Source: an uncultured Bacilli bacterium (lineage in GTDB: Bacteria > Bacillota_I > Bacilli_A > RF39 > UBA660). From it: a stretch of DNA of 42,173 bases. This document shows positions 2,551 to 7,284 of the stretch, in pieces. Positions within the stretch are counted from its first letter, which is position 1, and every line of letters starts with the position of its first letter. A model generated the notes under the pieces. It made no database searches and was not told the DNA's origin. It saw only the letters and a program-made list of their open reading frames with translations. The DNA is taken from positions 1-42,173 of the forward strand of contig CALVSW010000003.1 in NCBI GenBank assembly GCA_944359625.1. Direction: 5' to 3'. A program made the position numbers and the translations under genes.

Positions 2551-2579
2551 ATTTTAGCATAATATATTTGTTTTTTAAA
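2551..2579 (-). promoter_or_regulatory. Putative secA promoter (extended -10)
   Basis: Reading the minus strand there is TTTAAA, a 17-bp spacer and TGCTAAAAT, an extended -10 just upstream of the secA ribosome site. The -35 matches consensus at only four of six positions and overlaps the end of truA, so this is a moderate call. Confidence 0.4.
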
Positions 2580-3306
2580 TATTCTTATATTTAATATCTA
2601 CTAAGTATAAACCACAAGCTGAAGCAGTATATAAACTAGCAGGTTTATCATAATTATTAAGCATTTCTTCTATATCTATTATATTACGTCGATTACTTCC
2701 AACAAATAATAAGGCTCCTACTATATTTCTTATCATATACTTATAAAAAGATTTTCCAATAAACTTTATTTCTAAAATATTATCATGATAATTAAAGTCA
2801 ATACTATCAATACATAAATCATAACATCTGCGGTATCCAGAAACAAAGTTTTTAAAATTATGAACTCCTAGAAAGATTTTAGAACACTCAATCATTTTTT
2901 TAATATCTAAATTATAGTTATATTGTAAAAAATAATTATTTTTAAAAACATCATAGTTTCCTAAATTTATTTTATAAATATAAGTTTTACTAAGAACATT
3001 AAAACGAGCATGAAAATCATCAGGTACTATTTCTAAATCTAAAATACGAATATCACCAGGTAATATTTTGTTAATTGCTTTCTTAAATCTATCAACAGGT
3101 ATATCTACATCCATATTAAAACTAATAACTTGATTTAAAGCATGAACACCTTTATCAGTTCTTGAAGCTCCCTTAATAGTTACTACTTTTTTATTTAAAA
3201 TACTTAATGAATCTTCTAATACTTTTTGAACACTTCTTTTAGAATTTAATCTTTGAAAACCATAAAAATTAGTTCCATCATAACTAACTATTGCTTTATA
3301 TTTCAT
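2575..3306 (-). CDS. truA: tRNA pseudouridine(38-40) synthase TruA
   Basis: TruA isomerises uridines 38-40 in the anticodon arm of many tRNAs. The catalytic segment GASRTDKGVHA is intact, with the nucleophilic aspartate at residue 51. The 243-residue length is usual for the family. The start codon overlaps the TGA stop of the upstream ECF-like ATPase in an ATGA arrangement, which suggests translational coupling. In many Firmicutes truA follows ecfA1-ecfA2-ecfT. Here the order ecfA1-ecfA2-truA is kept but ecfT is absent. The function is secure from the motif. Confidence 0.97.
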   Translation of the reverse strand: MKYKAIVSYDGTNFYGFQRLNSKRSVQKVLEDSLSILNKKVVTIKGASRTDKGVHALNQVISFNMDVDIPVDRFKKAINKILPGDIRILDLEIVPDDFHARFNVLSKTYIYKINLGNYDVFKNNYFLQYNYNLDIKKMIECSKIFLGVHNFKNFVSGYRRCYDLCIDSIDFNYHDNILEIKFIGKSFYKYMIRNIVGALLFVGSNRRNIIDIEEMLNNYDKPASLYTASACGLYLVDIKYKNI

Positions 3307-4094
3307 TTATTCTCAACATCCCTATATATAGCCTTTATTAATTCTTTAATATCGATATAATTATCTAAATTTATCCCTTTTTTCTTTTTAGCTAAATTTA
3401 TAAATTTTATAATATGAGGTTCCTCTATATATTTATAAATCAAATTATTATATAAATCTTTATTAGTTCCTTTAACTTCTAATGAACCATTATTAAAAAT
3501 CACATATTCATCTAAAACATCAAGATAGTTACTAATATTATCACTACAAATTATTATATTACGTCCATATTTAATCTTAAGCTTTTTAAATAATTTTTTA
3601 AAATAATCTATATCTTTATAATTTAATCCTTTTTCAAAATAATCTACTATTATTACCTGAGGATTATAAAATAAAACACAAGCTAAAGAAACTTTTTTTA
3701 ATTCGGAAGTAGATAAAGTAGAAATAGTCCTATTTAAAAAGGAATCATTTAATCCAACCATTAATAAAGCATCTTTAATTTTTTCGGTAACATTTTCATA
3801 TTTTAGATGATAATTTTCTTTAAAATAAACCATTTGTTCAGATACTGTTTTACAATTAAATTCTTTTAAAGGATTATTACCTACATAACCAATATCACTT
3901 AATCTACCATTAGGATTAACAAATATAAAGCCACTTTCACGTTGTTTTTTTAAAGTTAATAAATCTCTTAATAGACGCCCTGATAATCCTGAACAAAAAT
4001 TTATAGAGTTTTCTTTAAATGTATAGTTTATTTTATTTAAACATTTATCTGCTTTAGTGGAGTTACATACTATATCTTTTAATATTATTTCCAT
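3303..4094 (-). CDS. Degenerate ECF-type ABC ATPase (EcfA2 position)
   Basis: This 263-residue protein has the outline of an energy-coupling-factor ATPase and sits where ecfA2 normally lies, between ecfA1 and truA. Its catalytic motifs are eroded. The Walker A position reads CSGLSGRLLR, with no lysine. The ABC signature reads LSTSELKK instead of LSGGQ. The Walker B region reads VIIVDYFEKGLN, so the catalytic glutamate is gone. The reading frame is intact and is coupled to both neighbours by short overlaps, which argues against a plain pseudogene. I infer that it cannot hydrolyse ATP by the usual mechanism. It may be a structural partner of the upstream ATPase, or a decaying remnant. No transmembrane EcfT gene is adjacent. 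Confidence 0.7.
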   Translation of the reverse strand: MEIILKDIVCNSTKADKCLNKINYTFKENSINFCSGLSGRLLRDLLTLKKQRESGFIFVNPNGRLSDIGYVGNNPLKEFNCKTVSEQMVYFKENYHLKYENVTEKIKDALLMVGLNDSFLNRTISTLSTSELKKVSLACVLFYNPQVIIVDYFEKGLNYKDIDYFKKLFKKLKIKYGRNIIICSDNISNYLDVLDEYVIFNNGSLEVKGTNKDLYNNLIYKYIEEPHIIKFINLAKKKKGINLDNYIDIKELIKAIYRDVENK

Positions 4095-4873
4095 ATAGCC
4101 TCAATCATCTTTCCATCATTAACAATTACTTTATCAATTAAACCATAATAACCAAGTTGAATAGATAAATCAACCAAAAATGGTAAATTAAAACCTAATC
4201 TTCTTAATAGCTTTTCTTCTTTTAAACATTCTATCGTATCACCAACCATAGCAATATTTTTATTATATAAAACTACTAAATTTTCAGTTTCTAATACATA
4301 TTCCATTTCTGATGTTATATTAATTAAAGTTATATTTTCTTGCTTGCAATAAGTTATTATTTTTTTTACATCTTTAATATTCATATTTATAAAAATGTCA
4401 TCTAAAACTAAATAATCACATCCACTAATAAGTTCTTTTATTATTTTTATATAATATTTTTCTTGGATTGTAAAAGTACTAATTTTATTTTCTAGTAAAT
4501 CCTGTAATTTAAAATATTTAACTACCTTTTTAACTCTTTTTTCCTCTTCTTCATAATCAAGATTACATCCATCTAAACCATTAAATAACTCATCAATAAC
4601 TAAACTATTTTTATTATAACTATTATTTAATACAACACGTACAAACTTTTTTAATAACGAATTATTATCTTCTGCAATTTGAACACCATTTATAATAATA
4701 GAACCTTCATATTTTAAATCACCATTCAATAGCTTACAAATTGTAGTTTTACCACTTCCACCAGGACCAATAATTGATGTATTATATTTCTTTTTGAATT
4801 CTAAAGAAAGTTTATCTAATACTACGTTTTCTCCAAGTTTAACTGATATATTTTGTAAAACTAAACTCTCCAT
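4085..4873 (-). CDS. Degenerate ECF-type ABC ATPase (EcfA1 position)
   Basis: This 262-residue ABC ATPase keeps a perfect Walker A (GPGGSGKTT, residues 36-44). Its signature motif is lost: FTIQE stands where LSGGQ is expected, and Walker B ends LVLDDIF, with Asp in place of the catalytic Glu. Position and order (before an ecfA2-like gene and truA) mark it as the ecfA1 counterpart. A longer reading with a start at 4906 is possible, but the ATG at 4873 follows a GGAAGGTGG ribosome site and gives the normal N-terminus. It overlaps the next gene by 10 bp. Nucleotide binding seems possible and normal hydrolysis doubtful. The usual partner EcfT is not in the window. Whether it still serves vitamin uptake is unknown. 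Confidence 0.72.
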   Translation of the reverse strand: MESLVLQNISVKLGENVVLDKLSLEFKKKYNTSIIGPGGSGKTTICKLLNGDLKYEGSIIINGVQIAEDNNSLLKKFVRVVLNNSYNKNSLVIDELFNGLDGCNLDYEEEEKRVKKVVKYFKLQDLLENKISTFTIQEKYYIKIIKELISGCDYLVLDDIFINMNIKDVKKIITYCKQENITLINITSEMEYVLETENLVVLYNKNIAMVGDTIECLKEEKLLRRLGFNLPFLVDLSIQLGYYGLIDKVIVNDGKMIEAIWK

Positions 4874-4918: not shown

Positions 4919-4933
4919 TAAATTTTATTCACC
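4908..4933 (-). terminator. Intrinsic terminator after divIC
   Basis: Minus-strand stem GTGAATA / TATTCAC (4914-4920 with 4926-4932) is followed by six T. The divIC stop codon (4925-4927) lies inside the hairpin. Confidence 0.75.
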
Positions 4934-5248
4934 TTCAGAATAAATTTGAATTACTAACTCGCCTTCTTTAGAATATCCATATTTTTCACGAGCATATAAA
5001 AGGATATAATCTAAATCTTGTAGTTTTGTAACTTCAGATGATAATCTTTTTTCATCTTCAAGTAAATCATTATATTTATTAGTTAATTCTGTCTTTAATT
5101 GTTGATTATGTAATATTTGCCTCCAATCATTAAAGACACTATTTATCAATAATAAAATTAAAATAGAAAAAGTAATTAATAAAGCTTTTAATCTTCTTTT
5201 ATGATAAACATCAGCATTATTTTTTTTAATTTTATTAACTTTCTCCAT
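4925..5248 (-). CDS. divIC: Septum formation initiator, DivIC/FtsB family
   Basis: DivIC is a bitopic membrane protein that works with FtsL and DivIB/FtsQ in the divisome. The 107-residue product has a basic cytoplasmic N-terminus, one transmembrane segment (about residues 21-39), an extracellular heptad-like stretch (about 45-75) and the conserved YAREKYGYSKEGE motif that identifies the family. It follows yabP and yabQ as in Bacillus (yabP-yabQ-divIC). The ATG is preceded by GAGGTAAGAT. A separate extended -10 just upstream suggests vegetative expression independent of the sporulation genes. Confidence 0.93.
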   Translation of the reverse strand: MEKVNKIKKNNADVYHKRRLKALLITFSILILLLINSVFNDWRQILHNQQLKTELTNKYNDLLEDEKRLSSEVTKLQDLDYILLYAREKYGYSKEGELVIQIYSEGE

Positions 5249-5264
5249 ATCTTACCTCAATAGC

Positions 5265-5273
5265 ATTATAACA
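5265..5273 (-). promoter_or_regulatory. Extended -10 promoter of divIC
   Basis: The minus strand reads TGTTATAAT about 17 bp before the divIC start codon. No good -35 is visible, which is common for extended -10 promoters. Confidence 0.5.
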
Positions 5274-5286
5274 CTTAACTATATAA

Positions 5287-5574
5287 TTATCTATTTTTAA
5301 ATAAAAATTTGACAATACTTTTTATATTATAACTAAAAATAATTCCTAATATAATAAATATTATAAAATATATATGGAAATTACCATTATTTATAAAATA
5401 AATAAAATCTACATAAGTTATTACACATATATAGCTTACCAAAAAACTGATTAAAAACTTTGAAATATTTGTAGCATTTTTTAACTTTTTTTTATGAAAT
5501 TTTACTATTATATTTATTAAAAAACCAAATATAAAAGAAGTTAAAAAACATAATAATTGAATACTTATTTTCAT
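5287..5574 (-). CDS. yabQ: Spore cortex biosynthesis membrane protein YabQ
   Basis: YabQ is a mother-cell membrane protein needed for spore cortex formation in Bacillus. This small hydrophobic protein of 95 residues has about three membrane segments (roughly residues 5-25, 40-62 and 66-84) separated by a Lys-rich loop near 27-33. The identification leans on position, between yabP and divIC exactly as in Bacillus, and on the matching topology; sequence recognition alone is weaker. It is much shorter than Bacillus YabQ and corresponds to the core domain only. Its ATG overlaps the yabP stop (ATGA), so the two are translationally coupled. Confidence 0.78.
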   Translation of the reverse strand: MKISIQLLCFLTSFIFGFLINIIVKFHKKKLKNATNISKFLISFLVSYICVITYVDFIYFINNGNFHIYFIIFIILGIIFSYNIKSIVKFLFKNR

Positions 5575-5861
5575 TTAAATAGTTTTGTTAATACATTACC
5601 CTTATTTTTTATATCTCTACCATCTAAATAAGATATCGAATTAACTTTCCCTTTAATATTTAAATTACCAGCTAAAGTATCTAATTTAACAATTTCTAAG
5701 TTACTGCCTTTTAAAACTAATGGTCCTAAAGTAGTATCCATTAAAAATTCTTCAGGATCAAAGCTAACTAACTTTTTTACTCCAGTTAAAGATATTTTTT
5801 TGCGATCTACTACCTTTATTTCACTTAATAAATTTTCTACAGCTAAATCTTTTATATCCAC
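5571..5861 (-). CDS. yabP: Sporulation protein YabP
   Basis: YabP belongs to the YabP/YqfC family, needed for spore cortex or coat assembly and made in the mother cell. The signature segments are present: LTGVKKLVSFDPEEF, then LGPLVLKGSNLEI, then the NIKGKVNSISYLD strand and a C-terminal KLFK. Two starts are possible. A TTG at 5873 gives 100 residues. The GTG at 5861 gives 96 residues and has GGTGAT at sensible spacing, so it is preferred. A SigmaE-like promoter lies just upstream. The gene is coupled to yabQ. Confidence 0.9.
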   Translation of the reverse strand: MDIKDLAVENLLSEIKVVDRKKISLTGVKKLVSFDPEEFLMDTTLGPLVLKGSNLEIVKLDTLAGNLNIKGKVNSISYLDGRDIKNKGNVLTKLFK

Positions 5862-5876
5862 TAGTATCACCAATAG

Positions 5877-5904
5877 ATTATATGCAACAACATAAAAAAA
5901 ATGA
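5877..5904 (-). promoter_or_regulatory. Putative SigmaE-type promoter of yabP-yabQ
   Basis: Minus strand CATATAAT (5877-5884) resembles the SigmaE -10 consensus CATACAAT, and TCATTTT lies 13 bp upstream. In Bacillus yabP is SigmaE-dependent, which fits. The -35 overlaps the spoVG terminator, so the call is tentative. Confidence 0.35.
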
Positions 5905-5921
5905 TTTTTTAAATCATTTTT
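5893..5921 (-). terminator. Intrinsic terminator after spoVG
   Basis: A perfect 11-bp stem AAAAATGATTT / AAATCATTTTT (5897-5907 with 5911-5921) has a 3-nt loop and continues into a T tract on the minus strand, six bases after the spoVG stop. Confidence 0.85.
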
Positions 5922-5926
5922 ATAAA

Positions 5927-6184
5927 TTATTCATTCTTTTTATATTCACCAATTATAGCATCTTCAAGCATTTTTCTTGCATCAGGATTAATTGGATGTG
6001 CTATATCACGATAACCACCAGTAGCTGTTTTACGGCTTGGCATTGCAATAAATAGCCCATTATCTCCTTCAATAATTCTAATATCATGTACGGCGAATGA
6101 ATCATCTAATAAAATAGATGCTATACCTTTCATTCTTGATCCTTCTTTTTCAATTTTTTTAACGCTAACTGATGTAACTTGCAT
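5927..6184 (-). CDS. spoVG: Regulator SpoVG
   Basis: SpoVG is a small nucleic-acid-binding regulator involved in sporulation, septation control and, in pathogens, capsule and virulence genes. The 85-residue protein has the family core: VTSVSVKKI at the N-terminus, ASILLDDSFAVHDIRII, then FIAMPSRK and YRDIAHPINP. Length matches the short Firmicute form. An AAGGAGAG ribosome site precedes the ATG. It is followed by a strong terminator and is driven by its own SigmaA-like promoter. The Bacillus gene uses SigmaH; I see no clear SigmaH element here. It lies directly downstream of veg; the intervening Bacillus genes (sspF, ispE, purR, yabJ) are absent. Confidence 0.98.
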   Translation of the reverse strand: MQVTSVSVKKIEKEGSRMKGIASILLDDSFAVHDIRIIEGDNGLFIAMPSRKTATGGYRDIAHPINPDARKMLEDAIIGEYKKNE

Positions 6185-6224
6185 AGCATTACTCTCCTTC
6201 TAAAGTCTATCTCAACTTATTTTA

Positions 6225-6253
6225 ATTTTATACCAGTTAAAGATAAATTTCAA
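6225..6253 (-). promoter_or_regulatory. SigmaA-type promoter of spoVG
   Basis: On the minus strand TTGAAA and TAAAAT are separated by exactly 17 bp. The -10 lies within TGGTATAAAAT, which could also serve as an extended -10. Confidence 0.6.
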
Positions 6254-6262
6254 GAACTTTTA

Positions 6263-6475
6263 TTACATATGATAAATCTTTACATCTCCAATAGCAACAT
6301 CAGCATAAGTAAAACTTTTATTAACTCCATTTACTAATACAGTAAATATATTAGGATAAACCTCATTTATAATTCCTTTATACATTTGCTTTTTACTTCT
6401 TGATCCAGTTACATTTAACATTATCTCTTTATTAATAAGAGATTTTATTTCATCTTTTATATCACTTAAATTCAT
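6263..6475 (-). CDS. veg: Veg family protein
   Basis: Veg is a small Firmicute protein linked in Bacillus subtilis to stimulation of biofilm formation and to spore outgrowth; its mechanism is not settled. The preferred 70-residue product starts MNLSDIKDEI and shows the family pattern: an N-terminal helix, then GSRSKKQMYKGIINEVYPNIFTV in two parts and the Ser-Phe-Thr-Tyr-Ala-Asp motif. A start 33 bp upstream is also open. The ATG at 6475 is chosen because it forms an ATGA overlap with the yabG stop. The yabG-veg pair is conserved from Bacillus. Confidence 0.9.
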   Translation of the reverse strand: MNLSDIKDEIKSLINKEIMLNVTGSRSKKQMYKGIINEVYPNIFTVLVNGVNKSFTYADVAIGDVKIYHM

Positions 6476-7245
6476 CTTGGATACCCCACATACATCATAC
6501 CATTGCACATAATACCGCCTATTCCTAGGGCCCCATTTTTTGTTTTTCCTAATAAATCAATTAAATCTACACGTTTATTTTTTTCGGTTAAAGCAATATT
6601 TACAGCAATTATAGCAGGATCTAGAGCATGAATATTAACTCTTTTAGGACTACTTGCAAAATTAGCACCAGCTTTAATTAACTCTTCATAATTACTTTGA
6701 CAAGCACCTGCTATTATTATTAGTTTTTCATGAGATTTTTCATATTTACGTGCCTGTTTTACAGCACGAACAAAATTTTTAGAATTTTTATAATTATTTA
6801 AATCGGTTTTATCACCTTTTTTGCGGTAATAAGCATCATGTCCAGTAATAATAACTATATCTGGTTTTACTTCTTCTAAATAATCTATAATATTGTTACT
6901 TAAAATATCCTCATCTATTTTACGACCTATAGCAAAAACTTTATTTTCTTTATAATAATTCATACATCTACTTAAATATTCAGAATCTCCATCTAAATGA
7001 AGTATTTTAGCTGGTATAAAAAAATAATCACTTCTATCTAAATTATCATTTTCTAATTTTTGAGGAACAAAGTTATCTTTTAATAAATCCTTAGATATTA
7101 ACTCGCAATCTTCAAGAGGACTATCTGCATATAATCTATCATTTACTCCTTTTAAATAAGCAATATTATTTTTTACATTTAAAACTACGAATACCATATC
7201 ATTTTGATAACTTTTTCTAGTAATATAGTCACCACTTTTTATCAA
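6472..7245 (-). CDS. yabG: Sporulation-specific protease YabG
   Basis: YabG is a cysteine protease made late in the mother cell that processes coat and morphogenetic proteins such as SpoIVA, and in Clostridioides also the germination pseudoprotease. The family core is clear: ITGHDAYY with the catalytic His, AGACQS with the catalytic Cys, and the very conserved ANFASSP and VNIHALDP segments. A GTG at 7254 is open, but the TTG at 7245 gives MIKSGDYITRKSYQ, matches the family N-terminus and has GGTG at good spacing. That ribosome site lies in the 3' arm of the upstream terminator hairpin. The gene is coupled to veg. In Bacillus yabG directly follows ksgA; here four polysaccharide genes intervene. 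Confidence 0.95.
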   Translation of the reverse strand: MIKSGDYITRKSYQNDMVFVVLNVKNNIAYLKGVNDRLYADSPLEDCELISKDLLKDNFVPQKLENDNLDRSDYFFIPAKILHLDGDSEYLSRCMNYYKENKVFAIGRKIDEDILSNNIIDYLEEVKPDIVIITGHDAYYRKKGDKTDLNNYKNSKNFVRAVKQARKYEKSHEKLIIIAGACQSNYEELIKAGANFASSPKRVNIHALDPAIIAVNIALTEKNKRVDLIDLLGKTKNGALGIGGIMCNGMMYVGYPR

Positions 7246-7284
7246 AAAAATCACCAGTTAATACTATGTATTAATTAGTGATTT
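7244..7284 (-). terminator. Intrinsic terminator of the polysaccharide cluster
   Basis: A 16-bp stem (7249-7264 with 7268/7269-7283, one G-U pair and one mismatch) ends in seven T on the minus strand immediately after the pssE-like stop. Its 3' arm contains the likely yabG ribosome site. Confidence 0.8.

Follow-up and report, generated by a model that had tools for sequence, protein, structure and literature searches.

EcfA1- and EcfA2-like pseudo-ATPases maintained without EcfT in a family of uncultured Bacilli: a probable non-transport heterodimer

Two overlapping genes of the window, as we call the whole stretch of 42,173 nucleotides analyzed here, encode proteins of the EcfA1 and EcfA2 types (A1 and A2 below), which have lost the residues of ATP hydrolysis and stand without the transmembrane subunit EcfT. 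We consider it fairly probable that these proteins form an obligate, stoichiometric, soluble heterodimer with a non-transport function, which would bind one Mg-ATP without hydrolyzing it and, depending on this ATP, serve a cytosolic partner as a scaffold or sensor. Recruitment to a non-transport role had been suggested by the first-pass annotation of this DNA, and it is now the best supported reading, since dN/dS is not near one and no EcfT was found elsewhere in the genome. To our knowledge, ECF motors are thought to exist solely to power EcfT, and our literature search found no paper describing an EcfA1A2 pair devoid of EcfT.

Both genes are read from the minus strand, on which the gene order in the window is yabG-veg-spoVG-yabP-yabQ-divIC-A1-A2-truA-secA. 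The main features of the locus are as follows.

4085–4873, minus strand: EcfA1-like pseudo-ATPase A1 (P0001, 262 aa); best NCBIfam family ECF_ATPase_1 (TIGR04520, E = 8e-28, score far below the equivalog cut-off); pLDDT 92.9; dN/dS 0.127
4085–4094, minus strand: overlap of the A1 stop and the A2 start, 10 nt, ATGGAAATAA, read in two frames
3303–4094, minus strand: EcfA2-like pseudo-ATPase A2 (P0002, 263 aa); best NCBIfam family ECF_ATPase_2 (TIGR04521, E = 2e-24, score far below the equivalog cut-off); pLDDT 91.3; dN/dS 0.118
2575–3306, minus strand: truA, tRNA pseudouridine synthase (PF01416, E = 4e-33), directly 3' of A2 where ecfT is missing

The ATG of A1 at 4873 is preceded by a good Shine-Dalgarno sequence (GGAAGGTGG), the exact 10-nt overlap of A1 and A2 was found in 93 of 99 loci, and the stop codon of A2 overlaps the ATG of truA by 4 nt (ATGA). 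The coordinates and the open, overlapping frames given by the first-pass annotation (A1 from 4873 to 4085, A2 from 4094 to 3303) are correct, and the ecfA1-ecfA2-truA order without ecfT, which it also described, is seen at the locus, EcfT being undetected genome-wide as well. The source genome is a MAG of 1.25 Mb in 40 contigs, with a completeness of 91%. In the window's own clade the pair is preceded by the sporulation-linked block from yabG to divIC (4925–7254), and in many other clades it comes after rpoA-rplQ and an SDR gene; both sporulating and non-sporulating members of the RF39-like order have been described (PMC10868615).

The identity of the pair as EcfA1 and EcfA2 is secure, judging from the best family matches and from the confident structural models, of which that of A1 is closest in the PDB to the EcfA1 chains 6zg3_F and 8bms_A (TM 0.88 and 0.87) and also 8bmp_A, and that of A2 to 4mki_B and 4hlu_A (EcfA/A', TM 0.87 and 0.79). 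With the group II ECF module EcfA1-EcfA2-EcfT (ECF-FolT2/PanT of Lactobacillus delbrueckii; the operon of Bacilli) the pair shares the truA-adjacent order, two EcfA-type ATPases with the ABC fold, and the C-terminal dimerization helices, which are conserved and occupy residues 232–242 and 253–261 in the A1 model and 227–239 and 249–261 in the A2 model. In contrast to that module, it is devoid of EcfT, of detected S components, of the catalytic Glu and switch His, of the Walker A of A2 and of the EcfT-docking Q-helix and acidic groove, and one of its nucleotide sites is destroyed. The motifs concerned are the following.

4742–4768, minus strand: A1 Walker A, GPGGSGKTT (residues 36–44), intact; GK[ST] kept in 35 of 41 EcfT-less genera
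4559–4660, minus strand: A1 Q-loop, Q-helix and coupling-helix groove region (residues 72–105), eroded, with a drop in identity; Q-helix NPDNQ lost
4397–4402, minus strand: A1 Walker B, with Asp158 retained and Asp159 in place of the catalytic Glu; residue 159 is Asp or Asn in 35 of 41 EcfT-less genera
4088–4237, minus strand: A1 C-terminal helical domain (residues 213–262), kept, with invariant or near-invariant residues in EcfT-less loci
3972–3989, minus strand: A2 Walker A destroyed, GLSGRL, with a shortened loop and Lys replaced by Arg; GK[ST] in only 6 of 41 EcfT-less genera
3702–3716, minus strand: A2 signature remnant LSTSE (residues 127–131); Ser plus Glu/Gln in 31 of 41 EcfT-less genera

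In A1, the Walker B reads LVLDD, the signature LSGGQ has become FTIQE, the switch His has become Ser, the Q-loop Gln is lost, and the Q-helix NPDNQ is replaced by NNSYNK, one groove acid (Glu94) being retained. In A2, the catalytic Glu is replaced by Tyr and the switch His by Asp, and the Q-helix is altered. The first-pass annotation had ascribed to A1 a perfect Walker A, no LSGGQ and no catalytic Glu, exactly as found here; for A2, the claimed losses of the Walker A Lys (GLSGR) and of the catalytic Glu stand, but the claimed loss of the signature needs refining, as the remnant LSTSE is present, and the positions conserved across EcfT-less genera include its Ser and its final acidic residue.

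The distribution of the pair was analyzed in 98 genomes from 97 genera of the same GTDB family, the loci being sorted from 60 neighborhoods together with profile searches. The pair is accompanied by EcfT in about 44 of the 97 genera, in about a dozen of which EcfT is short or eroded, and occurs without EcfT in 41, one of these being cut by a contig end. The module was lost outright in six genera (genomes G018, G027, G034, G061, G066, and G081), where the SDR gene formerly upstream, or another gene, lies directly before truA, which indicates that the job of the pair is dispensable; the remaining six were left unassigned. A1 and A2 were both present in all 99 pair loci. On the TruA tree the state of EcfT needs about nine changes by parsimony, two or three of them forced by strongly supported branches, and one GTDB genus holds both states (G168 and G265 with an eroded EcfT, G336 without EcfT); EcfT was lost several times within the family. 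In six genomes (G008, G014, G042, G057, G060, and G096) an eroded EcfT is present while A2 has already lost its Walker A and A1 its catalytic Glu, so that catalysis had failed by the time EcfT vanished, and the natural intermediate would be a non-hydrolyzing AAT complex. All genomes listed by an order-wide search for cases beyond the family belonged to this same family. A1 copies of 149–161 aa in G007, G045, and G088, and also in G035, are devoid of all or much of the N-terminal half; in the first three of them (loci L096, L110, and L112) A1 is about 150 aa long, its P-loop half is deleted and its C-terminal domain is conserved, and A2 measures 181–185 aa. As these three have no Walker A Lys in A1, ATP binding would not be universal across the family.

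Motif survival over the 41 EcfT-less genera is asymmetric. GK[ST] is kept in A1 in 35 of them and in A2 in six (Fisher p = 1e-10, relatedness of the genera being ignored), whereas the signature Ser with Glu/Gln is kept in A2 in 31 and in A1 in nine (p = 2e-6, relatedness likewise ignored), and the same outcome is seen in separate clades of the TruA tree. The Walker B Asp of A1 persists in 37 genera and its catalytic Glu in two, Asp (21) and Asn (14) taking its place, and the switch His has mostly given way to Ser, Asn or Thr; that Asp or Asn, and not just any residue, stands in for the Glu is itself a sign of constraint. In an ABC dimer, each site combines the Walker A and B of one subunit with the signature contributed by its counterpart. 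By the asymmetry, the site composed of A1 Walker A/B and the A2 signature has been kept, although devoid of hydrolysis residues, and the second composite site has been lost. Since the A1 Walker A and the A2 signature are kept and the catalytic residues are lost, we infer that the pair binds nucleotide without hydrolysis.

A second contrast lies between the regions of A1. The mean pairwise identity of its Walker A is 0.43 in EcfT-less and 0.49 in EcfT-bearing genera, and that of its C-terminal helices 0.44 and 0.48, whereas for the Q-loop, Q-helix and groove the values are 0.19 and 0.39. The groove that binds EcfT has thus lost constraint, while the Walker A and the dimerizing C-terminus of A1 have not. 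In the 66 EcfT-less loci P231, L240, and Y243 of A1 are invariant and F232 and S237 nearly so, and the A1 copies about 150 aa long share these residues. No protein constraint was read from the invariant Trp-Lys at the C-terminus of A1, since it falls in the 10-nt overlap with the A2 start codon; the argument from the C-terminus rests on P231, F232, S237, L240, and Y243, all outside the overlap. The near-invariant Trp-Lys of A1 and the Met-Glu of A2 are in fact encoded by the same bases, those at 4085–4094. In working transporters, the Q-helix groove binds the coupling helices of EcfT, and the C-terminal helices contribute to dimerization (PMC6828968).

It seems rather unlikely that the pair still energizes transport together with a diverged or unrelated membrane protein, docked as EcfT was or otherwise. 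Neither PF02361 (CbiQ) nor a family-specific EcfT profile matched anything in the source genome, so that an intact EcfT elsewhere, which the first-pass annotation had named as evidence against its reading, was not found; in other genera the family profile matches EcfT next to the pair (up to 1e-106) and only there, never convincingly elsewhere. A relocated or second EcfT is ruled out by the two profiles, and assembly gaps do not explain the absence, since EcfT-less relatives include the single-contig G219, without a PF02361 match, and the 3-contig G094. Divergence can indeed hide such a subunit, as PF02361 misses the eroded EcfT proteins of 194–250 aa that, in some genera, still have R-[LF]-[YF], the second coupling motif. 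S components, too, tend to escape detection in the family, including genomes with an intact EcfT: the orphan S components that the first-pass annotation had proposed to look for gave no match in the source genome with PF12822, PF07155 or PF02632, profiles which also miss most EcfT-bearing relatives, and diverged S components may be present. However, no conserved membrane gene adjoins the pair in EcfT-less loci, where the upstream genes encode an SDR oxidoreductase, DivIC or an NrdG-like activase, which disposes of a new adjacent membrane partner. Moreover, the coupling grooves of both A1 and A2 have lost constraint, which argues against a membrane partner docking as EcfT did, though the bridging of some other membrane partner, suggested by the first-pass annotation as its alternative, may yet apply, and both the catalytic Glu and the switch His are gone, while in working ECF modules mutation of the catalytic Glu traps an ATP-bound closed dimer and even single mutants fail to transport (PMC10368641).

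Among the eroded EcfT proteins (L160 and L161 of genus g34, L073, L077, L078, L082, L090, L095, and L115), several are only 194–219 aa long; the first coupling motif is lost, several keep R-[LF]-[YF] near the C-terminus, and those of the family sample are missed by PF02361. G092 (L117, L127) carries a separate small ECF-like cluster, consisting of an S component (PF12822/PF07155), a single EcfA and an EcfT of 180 aa, without A2 and truA.

As to the neighboring gene, TruA is the only constant neighbor of the pair. A joint action of the pair and TruA in tRNA modification would explain the unbroken A1-A2-truA block amid changing flanks, and the adjacency does survive varied upstream contexts (divIC, the NrdG-like activase, SDR, which is the gene of about 250 aa in many loci, and others) as well as the loss of rplM-rpsI beside truA in the window. 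Nevertheless, we find such a partnership quite improbable, because the ecfA1-ecfA2-ecfT-truA order is ancestral in Bacilli (PMC8046335), so that inertia and overlapping genes may suffice to keep it, and because TruA persists where the pair is missing.

Selection on the pair was estimated as dN/dS by NG86, which tends to underestimate dS in AT-rich genes and thus to inflate dN/dS, so that the values given here are probably conservative. For the closest pair of genomes from the window's own genus (G000-G175), dN/dS is 0.127 for A1 (95% limits 0.083–0.192) and 0.118 for A2 (0.070–0.184), both below the 0.196 of TruA; for the more distant G000-G041 the values are 0.36 and 0.17, compared with 0.33 for TruA. 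The view of the first-pass annotation that the frames appear to be maintained is thereby borne out, and neither of the signs of decay which it had named, dN/dS near one and frameshifted copies in relatives, was observed, no internal stops being found among the A1 matches listed across the family. Pseudogene decay after the loss of ECF transport, with frames that are simply remnants still unbroken, might account for the eroded catalytic motifs, for the six genera without any module, and for the higher dN/dS in genus g99 (A1 0.56–0.87, A2 0.52–0.69, against 0.30–0.40 for TruA), constraint on the pair being weaker in some lineages. We nonetheless hold decay to be highly improbable: in eight congeneric EcfT-less pairs with moderate dS, dN/dS is 0.08–0.40 with upper 95% limits of at most 0.57, the two genes are retained in 41 EcfT-less genera and never found apart, and one composite site is selectively preserved; as the general case, decay is refuted by dN/dS and retention. 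It is hardly credible, finally, that the frames are kept just so that translation reaches truA (operon polarity or coupling) and not for their proteins, since, although truA comes after the pair in nearly all loci, with a 4-nt overlap in 24 EcfT-less ones, the spacing of A2 and truA is variable, with a positive gap in many loci, residue-level conservation is strong, dN/dS is far below one and six genera have truA without the pair, the module-less genera and the protein-level selection together ruling out a need for truA expression.

Returning to a soluble heterodimer, its mechanism could be as follows. A1 and A2, whose ancestors were the EcfA1-EcfA2 motor in a group II ECF transporter, would hold one Mg-ATP between the A1 Walker A and the A2 signature without hydrolyzing it. 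The dimer might then be permanently closed or exchange ATP slowly, much like a working ECF module trapped by the E-to-Q change, and in this state it may serve as the scaffold or sensor supposed above. A close likeness is the 2EQ mutant of the solitary ECF module (PDB 8bms; PMC10368641), an ATP-bound closed dimer in which the catalytic Glu of A1 is likewise replaced by a non-catalytic residue; 2EQ, however, was made in the laboratory, contains EcfT and has both sites occupied, whereas in the window pair the replacement by Asp/Asn is natural, one site is lost and EcfT is absent.

Other ABC proteins offer partial parallels. Soluble ABC ATPases without transmembrane domains (SufC/SmsC, ABC-F, UvrA, and Rad50) perform cytosolic work, have intact motifs and hydrolyze ATP; an ABC dimer with cytosolic work is what we propose for the window pair, and we know of none among them that derives from EcfA1A2. 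MRP1-like heterodimeric ABC transporters keep one hydrolyzing site and their transmembrane domains, whereas the window pair has hydrolysis residues at neither site and no known transmembrane partner. What it has in common with these transporters is the asymmetry of the composite sites, one of which is non-catalytic (PMC9898250).

More tentatively, EcfA1-EcfA2 may have given rise several times in this family to a new class of soluble, non-hydrolyzing ABC heterodimers acting as ATP-dependent scaffolds or nucleotide sensors, by the same route each time: catalysis would have been lost first, EcfT eroded and then lost, and one composite site kept. Confined to the window, the first-pass annotation could not see that the EcfT-less state extends across the family, that it originated several times and that one composite nucleotide site, and exactly one, is preserved in it. 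The family thus presents a natural series, from a working motor through dead motors with an eroded EcfT and EcfT-less pairs to half-length remnants, most of it under selection, the genomes being small already. Such a series gives direct access to the way in which a transporter ATPase turns into a pseudoenzyme, and the pattern predicts a function as yet unknown in dozens of genera of these uncultured Bacilli, which probably live in the gut.
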